A stretch of 35,553 nt of DNA. Source: Phycisphaerales bacterium (GTDB taxonomy: Bacteria > Planctomycetota > Phycisphaerae > UBA1845). The DNA is taken from NCBI GenBank assembly GCA_020353195.1, contig CP070691.1:2481175-2516727 (forward strand), read 5' to 3'. The position numbers were made by a program, and so were the translations under genes. The notes under the pieces are model-generated. The model saw only the letters and a list, made by a program, of their open reading frames with translations, ran no database searches and was not told the origin of the DNA. Shown piece after piece: positions 4,940 through 12,945 of this stretch (position 1 is its first letter; each line of letters begins with the position of its first letter).

Positions 4940-5218
4940 ATGGATGTTGACGGTGTCATTCGATGCGGGTTGTGCGGGCGGCGGACGCCTCGGTGGCAGC
5001 TGTCGAAGCATCATGTGTTGCCCAAGTCGCGTGGGGGCCGGCGGTCCGAGCTTCTGTGCAAGACCTGTCACGGGCATATCCACGCGTTGTTTTCGGTGAA
5101 GGAGCTGGAGCGCAGCTATCGCACGCTGGATGCGCTGCGCGCCGCGTCGCCGTTGCAGGGATACTTGCGGTGGATCCGCAAACAGAAGCCGACGCGCCAG
5201 TTCCGCCGCCGTCGGTGA
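4940..5218 (+). CDS. Small HNH-type protein
   Basis: A 92-residue protein with a compact HNH motif: Cys9-x2-Cys12, then KHHVLPKSRGG with His24-His25, then Cys40-x2-Cys43 (LLCKTCHGHIHALFS), with His44 and His48. The two CxxC pairs would hold a structural zinc ion, and the His residues form the beta-beta-alpha-metal nuclease site. Stand-alone HNH proteins of this size act in DNA repair, restriction or phage packaging, or are of unknown use; nothing here selects one. The C-terminal 40 residues are basic and end in RRRR, which fits nucleic acid binding. The gene stands alone, convergent with dnaA and followed by a strong palindrome. The start ATG has no clear ribosome site. Confidence 0.75.
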   Translation: MDVDGVIRCGLCGRRTPRWQLSKHHVLPKSRGGRRSELLCKTCHGHIHALFSVKELERSYRTLDALRAASPLQGYLRWIRKQKPTRQFRRRR

Positions 5219-5274
5219 CTTGCGGTTGACGGCGGTGCCCGCGCGGAGGTGTGCGTCAGCTCGGTATAACGTGG

Positions 5275-5304
5275 AACGCGGAAGCCGGCGCCGGCTTCCG
5301 CGTT
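5275..5304. terminator. 13-bp palindromic hairpin between convergent HNH and dnaA genes
   Basis: AACGCGGAAGCCG and CGGCTTCCGCGTT pair perfectly around a GCGC loop. It lies 57 bases after the HNH gene and 74 bases from the end of dnaA. A short TT-TC stretch follows on the plus strand. Its position between converging genes suggests a terminator that serves at least the HNH gene. Confidence 0.7.
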
Positions 5305-5377
5305 TCATACGACCGCGCCTTGGCCCGTGCAGACGGGGCCGCGTGTTCGCCACGGCTTCAGAAGGTTTCGCAGCGCC

Positions 5378-6865
5378 TTACGGGGGCGCGGGTTGCGTGC
5401 ATGGTGACTCCACCTGCGGTGCCGGTTGGAGTGCCGGCTGCGGTACGGCACCTGGTTTTCCCAACTGTGATTCCAGCTGCGTGAGCACGGCGGCGATTTT
5501 CATTTGCTTTTCGCCGGCGGGTGCCATCCACCGGGCGACGGCATCTTCCTCGAGCATGCGTTTGACCCGGCGGGCGGCGAGGATGACCGTGGTGTGGTTC
5601 TTGTTGCCCATGTGCCGGGCGATTTCCGGGAAGCTCATGTTCGTGTGCTTGCGGGCGAGGAACATGGCCACGCTGCGTGCCAGGGCGATGGTTCGTGTCT
5701 TGCGCGAGGTATGCAGGTCGGCCGGCGTCAGTCCGAAGAAGATTGCGCTGATGCTCTCGATGTCCGAGAGGCGGACGACGGGGACGGTGTGCTGGACCAG
5801 GTCTCGTATTCCCCGTTCCGCCAGCTGGAGGGTCAGCGGCTGGTTGCCGAGTCGGGCGAGCGCGACGAGCTTGAGCAGTGCGCCTTCGAGTTCTCGGATG
5901 TTGGCCTGGAACACTTCGGCCACGTATCGGATCACGGGTTCCGGCACGTGGACGTTCATGGCCTGGGCGCGCTGCTGGAGGAAGTTGGTTCGGATCTGCA
6001 GGTCCGGCGGTCCCACCTTGACAACCATGCCGGCGACGAAGCGGTTGACCAGCGACTCGGACAGGTGGCCGACCATCATCGGCGGCGCGTCGGAGGCCAT
6101 CACCACCTGTTTGCCGGCGGCGTCGATGGCGTTGAACGTGTGCAGGAACTCGTCCTGTGTAGCTCGTTTGTTGGCGAAGAAGTGGATGTCGTCGACGACG
6201 AGGACGTCGACGCTTCGGTAGCGATGGCGGAAGGCGTCGAGGGCGCCGGTTTTGACTGCATAGACGAACTGGTTGGTGAAGTCCTCGCCGGACACGTAGA
6301 CCCAGTTGAGGTCCGGGTGGGCGTCTTTGACGGCGTTGCAGACGGACTGGAGCAGGTGTGTCTTGCCCACGCCGCAGCCGCCGTGGATGAAGAGGGGGTT
6401 GTACTGGGATGCCGGTTGGTCCGCGACGGTTCTGGCGGCGTGGTAGGCGAGTCGGTTGGACTCGCCGACGACGAAGTTGTCGAATCGTGCGCGGAGGGGC
6501 GGGCCCGGCGGGGGGCCGCCTTTTCGGCGGTGTATGCGTGCCAGCCGCTCCGGGTTGGCGGCGGCGTAATCCACCTGCGAGTCGGGCTGCTTCTTGCGAA
6601 GGGTCCGGGCCAGCGACGGATCGATCGAGAAGGACAGTGAGACCGGCTGTCCCGTCACCTCTTCGGCGGCTTGCCGGATGATCTCTGAGAAGTGGTTTTC
6701 GATCCATCCGCCGACGAACTGGTTCGGAACGTCCACTTTGAGGAAGCCGTCGGCCAGTGTCAGACGGGTAGCGTTCTTGAACCAGACTTTGAAGCGCTGA
6801 GGCCCGACCTTCTCGGCGATCCGGCTCTCCAGCAGGCACACCATATCGGTAGCGCAGACTGTCAC
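5378..6865 (-). CDS. dnaA: Chromosomal replication initiator DnaA
   Basis: DnaA binds origin boxes and opens the origin so that DnaB can be loaded. The GTG at 6865 is chosen because GGGGAGGAG lies 6 bases upstream; the frame is open for 71 more codons but lacks family similarity there. The 495 residues show domain I (1-85, with LLESRIAEKVGPQRFKVWF), a Pro- and basic-rich linker, and the AAA+ core with Walker A GGCGVGKT (162-169), Walker B VLVVDD (221-226) and the arginine-finger box LVNRFVAG (Arg275). Domain IV carries the box-binding signature. That signature reads GNKNHTTV instead of the usual GRDHTTV, so the Asp is Asn. A tail of about 30 residues rich in Pro and Gln extends past domain IV. 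Candidate boxes lie directly upstream of the promoter. Confidence 0.96.
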   Translation of the reverse strand: MTVCATDMVCLLESRIAEKVGPQRFKVWFKNATRLTLADGFLKVDVPNQFVGGWIENHFSEIIRQAAEEVTGQPVSLSFSIDPSLARTLRKKQPDSQVDYAAANPERLARIHRRKGGPPPGPPLRARFDNFVVGESNRLAYHAARTVADQPASQYNPLFIHGGCGVGKTHLLQSVCNAVKDAHPDLNWVYVSGEDFTNQFVYAVKTGALDAFRHRYRSVDVLVVDDIHFFANKRATQDEFLHTFNAIDAAGKQVVMASDAPPMMVGHLSESLVNRFVAGMVVKVGPPDLQIRTNFLQQRAQAMNVHVPEPVIRYVAEVFQANIRELEGALLKLVALARLGNQPLTLQLAERGIRDLVQHTVPVVRLSDIESISAIFFGLTPADLHTSRKTRTIALARSVAMFLARKHTNMSFPEIARHMGNKNHTTVILAARRVKRMLEEDAVARWMAPAGEKQMKIAAVLTQLESQLGKPGAVPQPALQPAPQVESPCTQPAPP

Positions 6866-6985
6866 CGTGTACTCCTCCCCGTTGAAGCCAAGTACTGCGT
6901 TTTCAATCTTATGAGTGACGAGGGTCGGAATCGTGCGAGCTACCGTCCCTGACCGCATCGAACTGGATGTCTCAATCCAGTGTGG

Positions 6986-7014
6986 AGTGTAACACTGAGC
7001 TATAAGTACGTCAA
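6986..7014 (-). promoter_or_regulatory. Sigma-70-type promoter of dnaA
   Basis: On the minus strand TTGACG (7014-7009) is followed after 17 bases by TACACT (6991-6986), 4 of 6 matches to TATAAT. Transcription would start near 6979 and leave a leader of about 115 bases. A 6-bp hairpin (CTGGAT/ATCCAG, 6963-6980) lies at the predicted start point. DnaA-box-like sequences lie 20-130 bp upstream, which would allow autoregulation by DnaA. Confidence 0.5.
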
Positions 7015-7034
7015 CAGAAAACTCGGGCGGAATG

Positions 7035-7146
7035 TTATGCACAATCGCATAGGTCCAACGGTGCAAATGGTTAGGCACCGCAAATCGGTGAATTATTTTT
7101 TATTGACCACAAGCGGAGATTCTCGGCGTGGACAAACCGTGGACAA
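7035..7146. other. Candidate oriC: DnaA-box-like repeats and AT-rich stretch
   Basis: Between dnaA and the GNAT gene lie TTATGCACA (7035-7043, one mismatch to TTATCCACA), TTGACCACA (7103-7111, two mismatches) and two identical copies of TTGTCCACG in reverse orientation (7127-7135 and 7138-7146) spaced by 11 bp, one helical turn. The stretch 7088-7105 is almost pure A/T, which is striking in this GC-rich sequence and could be the unwinding element. The position directly upstream of dnaA is classical for oriC. The imperfect boxes leave doubt. Confidence 0.5.
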
Positions 7147-7159
7147 GATGAAGGCGTCG

Positions 7160-8107
7160 TCAATGTCTTGCCTTCGGCCCCGTTGCGATCCATGCTCTGC
7201 GTCGCGCCGTCTCGACGAATCCCCAGCGCTTGTACAAGCCCAGGGCGGGATGGTTGTCGCTGTCGACGGCCAAGGTCAGGAACGTCGCCCGGCGGCGAGC
7301 GCATTCATCGACGGCACGCGCGAGCAGTGCGTCGCCCATGCCTTGGCCCCGAACTTCGGGGGTCACACCCATATACACGACCTCCAGCACGGGACGGCGC
7401 AAGACTTGGGACAGTAGCAGAACGCCTGCGAGTTGCGAGCCGCATGAGGCGACGAGCCATAACGCCGGATCGTGCCGCCCGGTGGCGCGATGCATCGCCA
7501 GCACGTCTTCGGTGTCCCGCAGGCCCGTCAGGTCGGGGCAGTCCAGACTGCCCACATAGGTGAGATCCAGGGCTTGGATGAAAAGATGGTGAGTGTGTTG
7601 CGAATAGGGAACGAACGACAGGTCGGTCCGGATGCGAGTCCGGGCGGGGGGGGCGTCGGCGGGTCGCTCTTGGTAGGCCAACTCCGCCAGGAAGTGGAAG
7701 CCGGCGTCCGACAATGCCTCTTCCGTGTTCGAGGCCTCGGGCCAGACCAGCGCCTGGGCGATCGCCATCGCCTGCTCCCACGTCCGCTCCTGCAGCGCCC
7801 GGAGCATGGAGGTCATCTCGCGGCGGTAGCGTTTGGCCACTCGCTCCGGCGGGAGATAGACCAGCGTGATTCGGCCCGGCGTCGCGACGGACGCGCACGC
7901 GCAGACGAGACGGCTGCCGCGGAACACGCCCAGCACCGGTTCGATCGACAGCGATAAGCCCCGCACGAAGTTCGTCAGTTCGGCCACCCGGTGGTTGGTG
8001 GCGCGGTCGGGAACGGTCTGGCCGGAGACGACCATTCGCAGCGCCGCAGCGTGCTGGGCGTCGGTGGGTTCAAGAAGACGGATTCCGTCCGGTGTGTCGT
8101 GTTCCAT
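7160..8107 (-). CDS. Tandem GNAT-family N-acetyltransferase
   Basis: The ATG at 8107 gives 315 residues (MEHDTPDGIRLLEP); the frame is open upstream but that part is Pro/Arg-rich noise. The C-terminal half (about 165-315) is a complete GNAT domain. It has the strand VVYMGVTPEVRGQGMGDALL, with the acetyl-CoA loop R-G-Q-G-M-G, and the closing motif NHPALGLYKRWGFVE. The N-terminal half has the length and strand pattern of a second, degenerate GNAT fold without a clear pyrophosphate loop, as in mycothiol-synthase-like double GNAT proteins. The substrate is unknown. It lies upstream of the candidate origin and dnaA on the same strand. It is divergent from the HEAT-lipoprotein operon, with about 275 bp between them. 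Confidence 0.8.
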   Translation of the reverse strand: MEHDTPDGIRLLEPTDAQHAAALRMVVSGQTVPDRATNHRVAELTNFVRGLSLSIEPVLGVFRGSRLVCACASVATPGRITLVYLPPERVAKRYRREMTSMLRALQERTWEQAMAIAQALVWPEASNTEEALSDAGFHFLAELAYQERPADAPPARTRIRTDLSFVPYSQHTHHLFIQALDLTYVGSLDCPDLTGLRDTEDVLAMHRATGRHDPALWLVASCGSQLAGVLLLSQVLRRPVLEVVYMGVTPEVRGQGMGDALLARAVDECARRRATFLTLAVDSDNHPALGLYKRWGFVETARRRAWIATGPKARH

Positions 8108-8383: not shown

Positions 8384-8806
8384 GTGAGTGAGCGGTTGCG
8401 GTTTCCGTGGAGAATCCTGTGGCCCGTCCTGGTGACGGGGTGCTTGGGCGTGGTCGGCTGCGCGGGTAATCGGAGGGCGGCGGTGCGTCAGCTCGAGTCG
8501 CCGGACCCTTCGGAGCGTATCCTCGCCATTATCGAGTTGGCCGAGCGAGACGACGATGGGGTCAGCGGCGGCGGGCCGGTGGGTCGGGGATCGGTCGTTC
8601 CGCTTCTGGTGGATCGGCTGGAGGACGAGGACGAGGGCGTGCGTTTTTTCGCCATCGTGGCGCTGGAGAAGCTGACGGGTACGCGGAGGGGGTATCGTTA
8701 CAGTGATCCGGATCACCTGCGTCGTGAGGCGGTGCAGCGGTGGCGAGCGTCGGTGGCGGTCTCATCGCCGGGAGCGGTCGGGGGGGATGAGGGCGTCGAT
8801 TGGTAG
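8384..8806 (+). CDS. HEAT-repeat-like lipoprotein
   Basis: The GTG at 8384 gives 140 residues and follows the TATAAT promoter closely. The N-terminus is a lipoprotein signal: a basic start (SERLRFPWR), a hydrophobic core (ILWPVLVTGCLGVVG) and a lipobox LGVVGC with Cys26 as the modified residue; Cys20 (VTGC) is an alternative. The mature part has two helical HEAT-type units, RQLESPDPSERILAIIELAE and PLLVDRLEDEDEGVRFFAIV (the latter with the usual D-x-x-V-R turn). It ends with a short degraded third unit. HEAT proteins bind other proteins. As first gene before rsbW and the mla genes, it might link the envelope to that system, but this is inference. No specific family is recognised. Confidence 0.7.
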   Translation: MSERLRFPWRILWPVLVTGCLGVVGCAGNRRAAVRQLESPDPSERILAIIELAERDDDGVSGGGPVGRGSVVPLLVDRLEDEDEGVRFFAIVALEKLTGTRRGYRYSDPDHLRREAVQRWRASVAVSSPGAVGGDEGVDW

Positions 8807-8837
8807 CGGTGGGCGTGCTGCAGAGGATGGAGGTTTC

Positions 8838-9269
8838 GTGGCCCTGCCGAAGTGCGTGGAGATGCGAGTTCTCAGCGACCCCGCGAACCTGCGGGTGGTC
8901 CGCGAGGCGGTGCGCCGATCCGCGGGTGAGGTCGGGTTTTCGGAGGCCGACACCGAGCAGATCGCCCTGGCCGTTGACGAGGCCCTGGCCAATGTCATCA
9001 AGCACGGCTACGATCAGCAGTACGATCAGCCGATCGACATCCGCATCGAGCCGGTGGCTGAATCCGGTCGGAGCGGGTTGGGCCTTTTCATCCGGGATTT
9101 CGGGGCGACGGTGGATCCGGAGACGATTTGCGGGCGCGACCTGGCCGATGTCCGCCCCGGCGGGCTTGGGGTGCACATTATCACGAGTGTAATGGACGAA
9201 GTGCGGTACGAATCGGCCGAGGGTGGTGGCACGCGGCTGAGCATGGTGAAGTGGAGGGGACATGAGTAA
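8838..9269 (+). CDS. RsbW/SpoIIAB-type serine kinase (anti-sigma factor family)
   Basis: The GTG at 8838 follows GGAGG with 4-base spacing and gives 143 residues. The protein is a GHKL ATPase of the HATPase_c_2 type. It has the N-box VDEALANVIKHGY (Glu48, Asn52, His56), the G1 box IRDFG (Asp87), the G2 box GGLGVHII and a final GGGTRLSM strand, all intact, so kinase activity is expected. In Bacillus, such proteins hold a sigma factor and phosphorylate a STAS partner on serine. The next gene overlaps it by 8 bases and encodes just such a STAS protein. No sigma factor gene is near; instead the mla transport genes follow. Its real target may be a sigma factor elsewhere or the lipid transporter. 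Confidence 0.9.
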   Translation: MALPKCVEMRVLSDPANLRVVREAVRRSAGEVGFSEADTEQIALAVDEALANVIKHGYDQQYDQPIDIRIEPVAESGRSGLGLFIRDFGATVDPETICGRDLADVRPGGLGVHIITSVMDEVRYESAEGGGTRLSMVKWRGHE

Positions 9270-9600
9270 GGCGCTGCGGGATGTTCGGCAGGTTGGATCG
9301 ACGACGGTAGCGGTACCGGCGGGTGAGGTCGATCTTCAGCAGTCGCCGGGTCTATACCGGGAGATGATGGCGGTGTGCAAGGGCAAGCCGTCGAAGCTGA
9401 TCATCGACCTCCGCGAGGTGAGCTACATGGATTCATCGGGGGTGAGCACGCTGGTGGAGGTGTTCCGCATGGTCAACGGTTACGGCGGGTCGTTGATTCT
9501 GCTTGCGCCCACGGATCGCGTGCGCAGCATGTTCGAGATTGCCAAGCTCGATCAGTTCTTCACGATATTCGAGGATGAGCAAGAGGCGATGAAGGCATGA
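9262..9600 (+). CDS. STAS-domain protein, anti-sigma antagonist or MlaB-like
   Basis: A 112-residue single STAS domain. It overlaps the kinase gene by 8 bases (ribosome site GGAGGGG inside the kinase gene) and overlaps mlaE by 4 bases (ATGA). The strand LIIDLREVSYMDSSGVSTLVE contains the conserved D-S-S-G, with Ser58 at the position phosphorylated in SpoIIAA. It therefore fits a partner switch with the RsbW-like kinase. At the same time, a STAS subunit (MlaB) is part of the E. coli MlaFEDB complex, and here the gene is translationally coupled to the permease. Both roles may be combined; sequence alone cannot separate them. The C-terminal end FTIFEDEQEAMKA is as in anti-sigma antagonists. Confidence 0.9.
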   Translation: MSKALRDVRQVGSTTVAVPAGEVDLQQSPGLYREMMAVCKGKPSKLIIDLREVSYMDSSGVSTLVEVFRMVNGYGGSLILLAPTDRVRSMFEIAKLDQFFTIFEDEQEAMKA

Positions 9601-10478
9601 GTGATTCTCCCTCATCCGGACCGCCCGCCTCGGGTCCGTCGGCGGGTGCGGCGCGGTGGCGGCGGATGGTCGAGGGTGTCGGCGGCGCCGTGATCGGGTG
9701 GGTCGACCGGTGTGGCGAGACGGTTCGGTTCGTGGGGGACATGACCGACTTGCTGGGGCACACGCTGCGCTGGCTGTTTCGCAGCGTGTTCGTGCCCGGG
9801 GTCCGGCTGCGCCGGTCGGCGTTGGCGTACCAGATGGTGCGGGTCGGGGTCCGCAGCATCGGCATCGTGGTGCTGGTCCAGATTTTCATCGGGATCATTC
9901 TGGCGTTGCAGCTGGCTCCGACGCTTCGGGATTACGGGCAGTTGGAGCGGGTGGCGGATGTGGTGGCCATCGCGGTCGTCCGCGAGTTGGGGCCGCTGAT
10001 CTCGGCGATCGTCCTGAGCGGGTTCGCCGGGGCGTCGATCGCGGCCGAGATCGGAGCGATGAAGGAGGCGGAGGAGATCAAGGCACTGAAAGCGCACGCT
10101 TTGAACCCGTATCACTTTCTGGTGATGCCGCGGTTGCTGGCCACGGTCATGATGCTGACGGGTCTGACGGTCATTGCCGATGTGGTGGGGGTATTCGGTG
10201 GGTTCCTGACGAGTTGGCTGGTGCTCGAGGTTCCGCCGGCTACTTACGTCGATCTGACGCAGAGTGCGTTGGGTCTGAAGGATCTGTTCACGGGGCTGTT
10301 CAAAGCGGGTGTGTTCGGGATGCTGATTGCGCTGATCGCGTGCTGTGAGGGTTTGCGGGTCAGCGGAGGGGCGGAAGGGGTGGGGCGGGCGACGACGGCC
10401 ACCGTGGTCAAGTCCATCGTGGCGCTGATCGGCGTCGATGCTTTGTTCACGGCGGTGTTTTACGTGTTCGAGATATAG
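9597..10478 (+). CDS. mlaE: MlaE-family lipid ABC transporter permease
   Basis: The 293-residue protein starts with the ATG that overlaps the stop of the STAS gene. After about 60 residues, Pro- and Gly-rich and then amphipathic, it has the MlaE permease core. Hydrophobic segments are visible around 85-110 (GIVVLVQIFIGIILALQL), 125-150, 175-205 and 235-290. The family signature is present as SGFAGASIAAEIGAMKEAEEI, read here in two parts: GFAGASIAAEIGAMK and EEIKAL. In the Mla system the permease sits in the inner membrane and moves phospholipids between the inner membrane and the periplasmic MlaD ring. The ATPase and MCE subunits follow downstream, so the complex is complete apart from a possible periplasmic carrier MlaC and lipoprotein MlaA, which are not in the window. 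Confidence 0.93.
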   Translation: MSDSPSSGPPASGPSAGAARWRRMVEGVGGAVIGWVDRCGETVRFVGDMTDLLGHTLRWLFRSVFVPGVRLRRSALAYQMVRVGVRSIGIVVLVQIFIGIILALQLAPTLRDYGQLERVADVVAIAVVRELGPLISAIVLSGFAGASIAAEIGAMKEAEEIKALKAHALNPYHFLVMPRLLATVMMLTGLTVIADVVGVFGGFLTSWLVLEVPPATYVDLTQSALGLKDLFTGLFKAGVFGMLIALIACCEGLRVSGGAEGVGRATTATVVKSIVALIGVDALFTAVFYVFEI

Positions 10479-10593
10479 GGGGCACGGGGCCGGGAGATTT
10501 GCGGGGTGAAGGGGCTGGTGAGCGGCGAGCGGCGGATCCGGCGTTCATCGTCGGTGCTGGTGTTTTTTTGGATGCGGCGGTTGATCGTCTGCC

Positions 10594-11460
10594 ATGGACA
10601 GTGACGTCATCATATCGGTGCGCAACGTGGTCAAGACGTTTCGGAGCCCGGGGGGCGACGAGGTCCGGGTGCTCGACGGTGTGACGTTCGACATTCTGCG
10701 GGGCGAGACGATCGTCATCATGGGGGGTAGCGGGTGCGGTAAGAGCACGCTGCTGAACTGTCTGATCGGCGAGTACACGATCGACGGCGGGCAGATCATC
10801 TACTCGACCGAACGGATGCCCGAGCCGCGTGACATCGGCGAGCTGCCCGAAGCCGAGTTGAACGAGGTTCGAAAGCGGTTCGGGATTCTGTTCCAGAGCG
10901 GCGCTTTGTTCAATTCGATGTCGGTGGCCGAGAACATCGCCCTGCCCATCCGGGAGCATTCCGACGTTCCCGCGCGGCTGATCGACACGATCGTCACGCT
11001 GAAGCTCGAGCAGGTCAAGATGCTCGAGCACCGCGACAAGATGCCCGCGCAGCTTTCCGGCGGGCAGAAGAAACGGGTGGGTCTGGCGAGGGCGACGGCT
11101 CTGGATCCGGAGATCCTGTTTTACGACGAGCCGTCGGCGGGGTTGGATCCCGTGACGTCGGCCACGATCGACGAGTTGATGATCGATTTGTCGAAGAAGC
11201 TGTTGGTCACCAGCGTGGTGGTGACGCATGAGATGGACTCGGCGTTTCGGATCGCCGACCGCATGGTGATGCTGGAGAGGGGGCGGGTGCTGAAGCTCGG
11301 CGCGCGGAGCGAGTTCGAGGCTCTCCGCGACGCTCCCGCCGAATCGCTGACGGGCCGCGAGGAGAAGCTGATGAACCAGTTTCTGAACGGGTTCAGCGTC
11401 GGGCCCCTGACCGACGTGCACGGGATGAGCGAGTACGAGAAACTGATCATCGCCGGATGA
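10594..11460 (+). CDS. mlaF: MlaF-type ABC ATPase
   Basis: A 288-residue ABC ATPase with Walker A GGSGCGKS (residues 44-51), the signature LSGGQKKRVGLARA (from about 153), Walker B EILFYDEP and the D-loop SAGLDPVTS. The phrase DEPSAGLDPVTSATIDEL is characteristic of the Mla/Ttg2A group rather than of importers. The H-switch is in VVVTHEMDSAFRIADR. The C-terminal 40 residues extend beyond the core; in MlaF such a tail contacts the neighbouring subunit. The start ATG at 10594 has no clear ribosome site, and 115 bp separate it from mlaE, so expression may depend on read-through of the operon. It energises lipid movement by the permease encoded just upstream. Confidence 0.95.
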   Translation: MDSDVIISVRNVVKTFRSPGGDEVRVLDGVTFDILRGETIVIMGGSGCGKSTLLNCLIGEYTIDGGQIIYSTERMPEPRDIGELPEAELNEVRKRFGILFQSGALFNSMSVAENIALPIREHSDVPARLIDTIVTLKLEQVKMLEHRDKMPAQLSGGQKKRVGLARATALDPEILFYDEPSAGLDPVTSATIDELMIDLSKKLLVTSVVVTHEMDSAFRIADRMVMLERGRVLKLGARSEFEALRDAPAESLTGREEKLMNQFLNGFSVGPLTDVHGMSEYEKLIIAG

Positions 11461-11589
11461 GATCAGCCGGCGCAGGAGCGGGTGGTGCGGGCGGCTTGTC
11501 CGCCCGTGCCCGACGCCGGGCGATTATCGACGTGTGTGTCGAGGATCGGTGGCGCGTGTAGCCAGAGACAGCCAATCACGGACACGATC

Positions 11590-12945
11590 ATGGCGAAAGC
11601 AACGAATACGTTCGCACTGGGATTGACGGTGATCGTCATCCTGGTTCTGTTCTTCGCGGTCCTGTTATTCATCGGGGGTAGCGACGTGTTCGGCCCGTCG
11701 ATGACGGGGTATTCCGTGCGGTTTTCGGCGGCCGCGCCTCTTCCGGACGAGGTGAAGGCCGGGGCGGCTGTTTTCTGCGGGCTGCGTAAGGTCGGGAGCG
11801 TCGAGGGGGTCACGCACAGAAGTGCCGTGGACGAATCGACCGGGCGCAATCGGCTGTTCGTCTATCTCGATTTCACGGTCAGCGATGAAGTCGCGCTGCG
11901 CAAAGACTGCAAGATCGTCGCCCGGGGTCCGCTGCTCGGGGGCGGAGGCAAGCTGGTCATCACCGATCCCGGCGTCGTCGGTGAGCCGCTGCCGCCGGGC
12001 GCGACGATCGAGGGGATGCCCGGCGGCACGTTCGATTCGGCTCTGGAGGCGCTGGCCGGTGAGATCAACCCGAACAACCCGGCCGGGCTGATGGCGCTGG
12101 TCAAGATGGAGCTCGACGCCGGCAACGCGCGGTCGATGCTGGCCAAAGCGCACCGGTCGATTGACGATTTGAACGCGATTACGGCGGACATCAGCCGGCA
12201 GGTGGACCCGCGTCAGAAGGAGGCGCTGATTGCCAAGGTGGGTTCGGTCCTGGACAACGTCAACGCCGCGACCGGGTCGTTACGGGAGCAGCTGACGTCC
12301 GGCGTCGACGGGGTGGCGCTCGCCAAGGTGCACGAGGGGCTTGACACTCTCAACGCGAGTCTGTCGGCCGCGTTGGCGATGCTCGAATACAATCGCCCGG
12401 TCATCGACGAGACGATCGCCGGGGTCCAGCGGACGGTGGACACGCTGGATCGTCGTATCGTCACACCGGTCGGCGACGAGCTTGACGTGGCGGCTGATAC
12501 GAGTCTGCTGGCCAAGCTGCACGTTTCGTTCGATCGGCTGAACCGGTCGCTGGGGGACGTGAGTGTAGTCACTGACAAGACGCGCGAAGTCATCGTGCTG
12601 AATCAGGACCGGTTGGACAGCATCTTCGCGAACGTGAACGAGACCAGCGCCCACCTGAAGTCGGCGTCCAAGGAAATCCGGCGCAGTCCGTGGCGGCTGT
12701 TGTATCGGCCGTCGCTGCCGGAAATGAAGGAGCTGAACATCTTCGACGCGTCGCGGGAGTTCACCGAAGCGGCGGCCCACCTGGATGATTCGGCCACGCA
12801 GTTGCGTGCGTTGCTGGACGCGCACGGTGGCCGGCTTGCCGCCGACGACCCGGACCTGCAGAAGATCAGAGCCCGGTTGCAGGATACGTTCGAGAGGTTC
12901 ACGATCGCCGAGAAGGCGTTGTGGAAGGAGCTGTCGGGCCGGTAG
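11590..12945 (+). CDS. mlaD: MCE-domain protein, MlaD-like with long helical C-terminus
   Basis: The ATG at 11590 (MAKATNTFALGLTVIV) gives 451 residues; an open upstream stretch is probably not translated. One membrane helix (about 9-30) anchors it. The MCE domain follows (about 40-150), with the strand pattern YSVRFSAAAPLPDEVKAGAAV, cited here as YSVRFSAAAP, then VKAGAAVFCGLRKVGSV. From about 160 to the end the protein is almost entirely helical with heptad-like Leu/Ala/Val spacing. E. coli MlaD has only about 180 residues; this is more than twice as long. In related MCE proteins such helices form a needle or tube across the periplasm, so this one could bridge to the outer membrane. It is the last gene of the operon, followed by a strong hairpin. 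Confidence 0.88.
   Translation: MAKATNTFALGLTVIVILVLFFAVLLFIGGSDVFGPSMTGYSVRFSAAAPLPDEVKAGAAVFCGLRKVGSVEGVTHRSAVDESTGRNRLFVYLDFTVSDEVALRKDCKIVARGPLLGGGGKLVITDPGVVGEPLPPGATIEGMPGGTFDSALEALAGEINPNNPAGLMALVKMELDAGNARSMLAKAHRSIDDLNAITADISRQVDPRQKEALIAKVGSVLDNVNAATGSLREQLTSGVDGVALAKVHEGLDTLNASLSAALAMLEYNRPVIDETIAGVQRTVDTLDRRIVTPVGDELDVAADTSLLAKLHVSFDRLNRSLGDVSVVTDKTREVIVLNQDRLDSIFANVNETSAHLKSASKEIRRSPWRLLYRPSLPEMKELNIFDASREFTEAAAHLDDSATQLRALLDAHGGRLAADDPDLQKIRARLQDTFERFTIAEKALWKELSGR

Follow-up and report, generated by a model that had tools for sequence, protein, structure and literature searches.

A candidate serine kinase-STAS switch encoded within an Mla-type lipid transporter operon of a planctomycete

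In the Escherichia coli lipid transporter MlaFEDB, the permease MlaE, the ATPase MlaF and an MCE protein are joined by a separate cytoplasmic STAS protein, MlaB. The C-terminal extension of E. coli MlaF sets Tyr261, Leu265 and Leu266 between MlaB and MlaF, and Thr52 of MlaB is the centre of this interface, where the change Thr52Glu reduces MlaF binding (PMC7367683); Thr52Ala abolishes ATPase activity (PMC5016091, PMC7367683). Two papers, of 2016 and 2020, put forward phosphorylation of MlaB but neither demonstrated it in vivo nor named a kinase, and post-translational regulation of Mla is a stated open question of the field (PMC5016091, PMC7367683). Here we describe an operon in a stretch of 35,553 nucleotides from a Phycisphaerales bacterium (GCA_020353195.1, contig CP070691.1, positions 2,481,175 to 2,516,727, forward strand; hereafter the window), in which genes for an RsbW/SpoIIAB-type serine kinase and an RsbV/SpoIIAA-type STAS protein precede mlaE, mlaF and mlaD. 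Our analysis suggests, with reasonable though far from full confidence, that this Mla-type lipid ATP-binding cassette (ABC) transporter is under phospho-control exerted on its STAS subunit by the kinase of the same operon. The planctomycete operon thus offers a specific candidate for a step in Mla regulation that had been postulated without ever being identified.

The closest described regulatory pairs are RsbV-RsbW and SpoIIAA-SpoIIAB of Bacillus subtilis. In the RsbV-RsbW crystal, RsbW Arg23 bonds RsbV Asp23, Asp42 bonds Arg84 and Arg87, Glu49 bonds the phosphorylated Ser56 and Tyr118 bonds Ile91 (PMC7340262). Serine kinases that act on a STAS protein with an output that is not necessarily a sigma factor are represented by SypE-SypA of Vibrio fischeri and BtrW-BtrV of Bordetella (PMC8256260); the target of SypA is not established, whereas a transporter target is proposed here from conserved linkage. 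A STAS domain is also tied to MlaE in the MlaB-MlaE fusions of some bacteria (PMC5016091), which, unlike the present unfused genes, come without a known kinase. Neither MlaB nor lipid transport comes up in a review of STAS-only proteins (PMC8256260), and no paper joining MlaE, STAS and RsbW was found in the open-licence literature. The first-pass annotation of this DNA, which had read the locus as a serine kinase switching Mla through the STAS protein, knew of no such described circuit. The idea of MlaB phosphorylation was in fact already published (PMC5016091, PMC7367683), and the novelty is the dedicated kinase.

The host genome is a single contig of 3.79 Mb. In the window, the kinase gene (8787..9269, +) overlaps the STAS gene (9262..9600, +) by 8 bases and the STAS gene overlaps mlaE (9597..10478, +) by 4 bases, both as first annotated. 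Also as annotated, mlaF (10594..11460, +) and mlaD (11590..12945, +) lie 3' of mlaE, the former after a gap of 115 bases and the latter on the same strand without overlap. The in-frame starts of the kinase are ATG 8787 and GTG 8838, and with the ATG its gene overlaps that of a HEAT-repeat lipoprotein (8384..8806, +; HEAT_2 32.8 bits, over cut-off; by inspection, a lipobox-like N-terminus). This lipoprotein gene, the first of the conserved operon and 5' of the kinase, had gone unnamed in the span 8384-12945, whose listed genes were otherwise correct. Its position makes a role as an envelope-side component or sensor possible. The operon has no mlaC, and the lipoprotein gene, which comes first whether or not a kinase is present, may encode the envelope-side partner.

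Pfam and NCBIfam scores agree with the identities given earlier to the kinase, STAS protein, MlaE and ABC ATPase. The kinase carries a HATPase_c_2 (GHKL) domain (PF13581, 92 bits against a cut-off of 27), its closest solved structure is B. subtilis RsbW (6m36_A, E 1.1e-8) and its closest public match by sequence is from a metagenome-assembled genome of Phycisphaerae. It scored below the curated equivalog models (PRK04069, 58 of 145 bits; spIIAB, 48 of 135), and its sequence places it in the same superfamily as RsbW and SpoIIAB, outside both equivalogs. In an enlarged sample, 91 distinct STAS proteins had a kinase gene next to them, and 22 adjoined mlaE with no kinase. The ATP-site Glu, Asn, His and Asp and the GG-LG motif are kept in 90-91 of the 91 operon kinases, and the catalytic Glu (E42), Mg-binding Asn (N46), adenine-binding Asp (D81) and glycine-rich lid (G102-G104) in all 91. 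The arginine equivalent to RsbW Arg23, mapped through the 6m36_A alignment and PMC7340262, is present in 90 of 91. Compared with the B. subtilis pairs, the folds, the ATP-site residues, the D-S-S-G site, the Arg-Asp docking contact and a SpoIIE-type PP2C counterpart are alike; unlike them, the operon partner here is a lipid ABC transporter and no SigB/F/G-type sigma factor scored over cut-off in 60 genomes.

The STAS protein (PF01740, 73 bits) passed the anti-sigma antagonist model TIGR00377 (70.4 bits, cut-off 53.5) and failed the MlaB model NF033618 mlaB_1 (22 bits, cut-off 90). An AlphaFold2 model with a predicted local distance difference test score of 92 gave Z 17-18.5 to RsbV/SpoIIAA structures against 13 to MlaB. 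Because the MlaB model failed, TIGR00377 passed and the predicted fold is nearest RsbV/SpoIIAA, the protein is classed, on sequence and modelled structure, as an RsbV-type protein in the place of MlaB and not as an MlaB orthologue. The gene lies inside the mla operon and overlaps mlaE, and STAS-mlaE was found in 113 distinct loci; the former description as an MlaB-like subunit therefore stands for place and falls for family membership, and an MlaB-like job as a putative MlaF binder is what we infer for this protein. The D-S-S-G motif occupies residues 57-60 (D57-S-S-G60), so that the earlier numbering of Ser58 was correct. RsbV Asp23, Arg84, Ser56 and Ile91 correspond to Asp24, Arg86, Ser58 and Ile93 of the window STAS in alignments with positions counted by hand. 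A second STAS-kinase pair occurs in this genome (L045, G000:C1:572000-584000, 5170-6091); its STAS is probably not a normal phospho-acceptor, because FSSAALG replaces D-S-S-G.

The transporter set of MlaE, MlaF and an MCE protein is present, with a strong score for MlaE (PF02405, 233 bits), an MlaF that matches ABC_tran (105 bits) and falls under cut-off for its best NCBIfam model (PRK11831, NF008809; 176 bits, cut-off 441), and a weak score for the MCE protein. The latter, a long MlaD of 451 amino acids, matched TIGR00996 at 31.9 bits, under cut-off, and no other family, and was named by conserved gene order; PF02470 scored over cut-off in the paralogous MlaD. The window MlaF ends in a C-terminal extension (QFLNGFSVGPLTDVHGMSEYEKLIIAG). 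This extension, QFLNG..GPLTD..G..E[FY]EK[LI], ends every STAS-linked mlaF that is readable to its end, relocated mlaF included, and its aromatic and hydrophobic residues are similar to Tyr261/Leu265/Leu266 of E. coli; in the STAS-less system, mlaF lacks it. A second mlaE-mlaF-mlaD operon of the window genome (L044, G000:C1:690000-702000) has no STAS gene and an MlaF without the extension. The locus thus shares with E. coli MlaFEDB the transporter set, the separate cytoplasmic STAS protein, the MlaF extension and a phosphorylatable residue at the same STAS position (Thr52 in MlaB), and differs from it in an RsbV-type STAS, kinase and HEAT lipoprotein genes in the operon, the lack of mlaC and a long MlaD.

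Conservation of the kinase-STAS-mlaE order, for which a survey had been suggested, was found at every scale: in mlaE neighbourhoods of 60 genomes, in public genomes scanned with a kinase alignment (counts refer to the best 80 loci) and in a phylum-wide sample of 119 genomes. Most of the 60 genomes have two mla systems, one without STAS. Upstream of the other lie lipoprotein, kinase and STAS genes at 27 loci, and 11 loci have the lipoprotein and STAS genes but no kinase. The order is kept in 27 of 31 kinase-bearing relatives and in 73 of the 80 best public homologues, where several exceptions are contig ends and the lipoprotein gene lies 5' of the kinase in 79. A kinase was found in 13 of the 119 phylum-wide genomes, with STAS and mlaE adjoining it in 12/12 besides the window genome. 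In some families mlaF-mlaD is relocated while kinase-STAS-mlaE usually stays together, and in genome G050 the lipoprotein-kinase-STAS trio has moved as one unit. With dozens of genomes showing it, this linkage is far beyond chance. No natural kinase-STAS or STAS-MlaE fusion occurred among the sampled loci.

Comparison of STAS proteins with and without a neighbouring kinase revealed the residues that follow the kinase. In the 22 kinase-less loci the lipoprotein gene directly abuts STAS-mlaE, and no kinase domain was found within any of them. Asp24 is present in 91/91 STAS proteins with a kinase and 7/22 without (Fisher p 9e-14), and a basic residue at position 86 in 90/91 and 8/22 (p 1.6e-11). 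When the 97 columns were scanned with similar residues pooled into groups, these two came out first and second, and the columns that separate the two sets include more of the six RsbV contact columns than expected by chance (permutation p 0.003, or 0.01 when restricted to conserved columns). Shared ancestry affects every column and so distorts such a ranking less than it does the raw p-values. Position 58 behaves differently, with 90 Ser and one Thr among the 91 proteins with a kinase and Ser in 22/22 without. The kept D-S-S-G serine had been read as a sign of phospho-control; that argument does not hold, since the kinase-less loci keep it too and Thr52 of E. coli MlaB matters for MlaF activity with no kinase known (PMC5016091). 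Conservation of Ser58 was accordingly rejected as evidence of phosphorylation. Its retention independent of the kinase would fit a second requirement for this residue, comparable to that for Thr52 in E. coli MlaB (PMC5016091).

An opposing enzyme was found in the operon of two relatives. In genome G133 (L295) the order is PP2C-kinase-STAS-mlaE-mlaF-mlaD, all on one strand. In genome G184 (L296) mlaE, mlaD, mlaF and STAS are followed by a single frame of 573 residues encoding kinase, GAF and SpoIIE-type PP2C domains (4978-6699, beside STAS and mlaF), a natural fusion that is possibly a bifunctional switch. The opposing enzyme has therefore joined the operon in two distant lineages. Elsewhere in the window genome are seven SpoIIE-domain genes, none linked to the operon in the regions read.

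These results point to an RsbV-type STAS protein that probably serves as an MlaB-like subunit under a dedicated kinase/phosphatase pair. Unphosphorylated STAS would bind MlaF and support assembly or activity of MlaFE, like MlaB in E. coli. The kinase would dock on the same face through its arginine (RsbW Arg23) to STAS Asp24 (RsbV Asp23) and phosphorylate Ser58 at the centre of this shared face, so that STAS would leave MlaF and lipid transport would be lowered. A SpoIIE-type PP2C, whose gene lies elsewhere in this genome but, in the two distant relatives, within the operon or joined to that of the kinase, would reverse the phosphorylation. Such a scheme of exclusive binding, with competition between kinase and MlaF and with phosphorylation as the presumed 'off' state, is the simplest because both partners are expected on the face around Ser58. 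On balance we expect that a complete kinase/phosphatase partner-switching module, of the sort familiar from control of sigma factors, is built into the lipid ABC transporter, with STAS as both subunit and phospho-switch and lipid traffic set by phosphorylation and not by transcription. If true, RsbW/RsbV switching would extend from transcription to membrane lipid transport. The locus offers a candidate kinase, substrate, site and contact residues, with a phosphatase in two relatives, all in the transporter operon, and the question is directly testable.

By their scores the kinase is of the SpoIIAB/RsbW type and the STAS protein of the SpoIIAA/RsbV type, and they could instead form an ordinary anti-sigma/anti-anti-sigma pair, in which the kinase holds a sigma factor, STAS frees it and the mla genes are operon neighbours or perhaps the regulon. 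Many sigma-70 family proteins occur in every genome, and at three sampled loci (L112, L114, L126) a gene for a FliA-like sigma factor is found no more than a few kb away. No SigB/F/G-type sigma factor scored over cut-off in the 60 genomes, however, although the model is strict and other sigma-70 factors exist. A sigma gene as conserved operon neighbour was rejected, being seen at few loci, and weak sigma-like matches also lie near kinase-less loci. STAS moreover stays with mlaE after kinase loss, a retention for which an anti-anti-sigma role without an anti-sigma fails to account, and the tail by which E. coli MlaF contacts MlaB is present in the STAS-linked MlaF only. We regard this explanation as unlikely.

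Signal flow could also run in reverse, with the transporter as sensor: idle or busy MlaFE would bind or release STAS, free STAS would engage the kinase, and the kinase would in turn control a sigma factor or other target as an envelope stress output. The predicted contacts would be the same, the STAS face being common to MlaF and kinase (PMC7367683, PMC7340262), and sigma-70 family factors are on hand. Yet no conserved output gene adjoins the operon, the in-operon or fused PP2C with its GAF input domain suggests that the signal enters through the kinase/phosphatase pair, and a lone output should preserve the kinase at every locus that retains STAS and mlaE, whereas the kinase was lost repeatedly; reverse flow is likewise improbable. 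That the contact residues track the kinase and Ser58 does not would fit a kinase that only sequesters STAS, with phosphorylation of Ser58 minor or absent. The full conservation of the ATP site, with the catalytic Glu in 91/91 kinases, and the operon phosphatases of two lineages, which make sense only with phosphorylation, render pure sequestration very unlikely.

Several points weigh against phospho-control of the transporter through STAS. Support is good but comparative throughout, coming from synteny, co-occurrence, loss of contact residues and phosphatases. Kinase loss is clustered, the best mlaE tree needing 8 changes of which only 3 are forced by supported branches, so the Fisher p-values overstate independence. 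Asp24 is lost in no kinase-bearing locus, and a pairwise sign test on the mlaE tree goes in the right direction and is underpowered. Asp24 is also kept in 7 kinase-less STAS proteins, and E. coli MlaB, we presume, carries Asp at this position. Residue 86 is non-basic in most deep phylum loci, and alignment of the operon kinases shows the position of RsbW Asp42, the partner of RsbV Arg84, to be variable, which rules out a conserved Asp42-like partner. Because all kinase-less loci keep Ser58, this residue appears to have a role apart from the operon kinase. Paralogue ancestry could be the source of the contrast in MlaF tails, and Veillonella MlaF has a shorter tail although there is no MlaB (PMC10665443). 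In 2 of the 31 kinase-bearing relatives (G047, G058) the kinase has no adjoining STAS; both assemblies are listed with 6% contamination.

To the left of the operon in the window lie genes on the minus strand that read as dnaA (5378-7078) and, just beside the operon, as a GNAT acetyltransferase (~7160-8100). Divergent orphan kinases of the operon-kinase clade without adjoining STAS form exceptions at L145, L170, L189 and L190, and those of L145 and L170 lie ahead of a gene reading as an FAD-type oxidoreductase. At L170 a dnaA-like gene and another neighbour occupy the same places as in the window, which suggests that the orphan kinase has stayed at the ancestral position and that the rest of the operon moved away.

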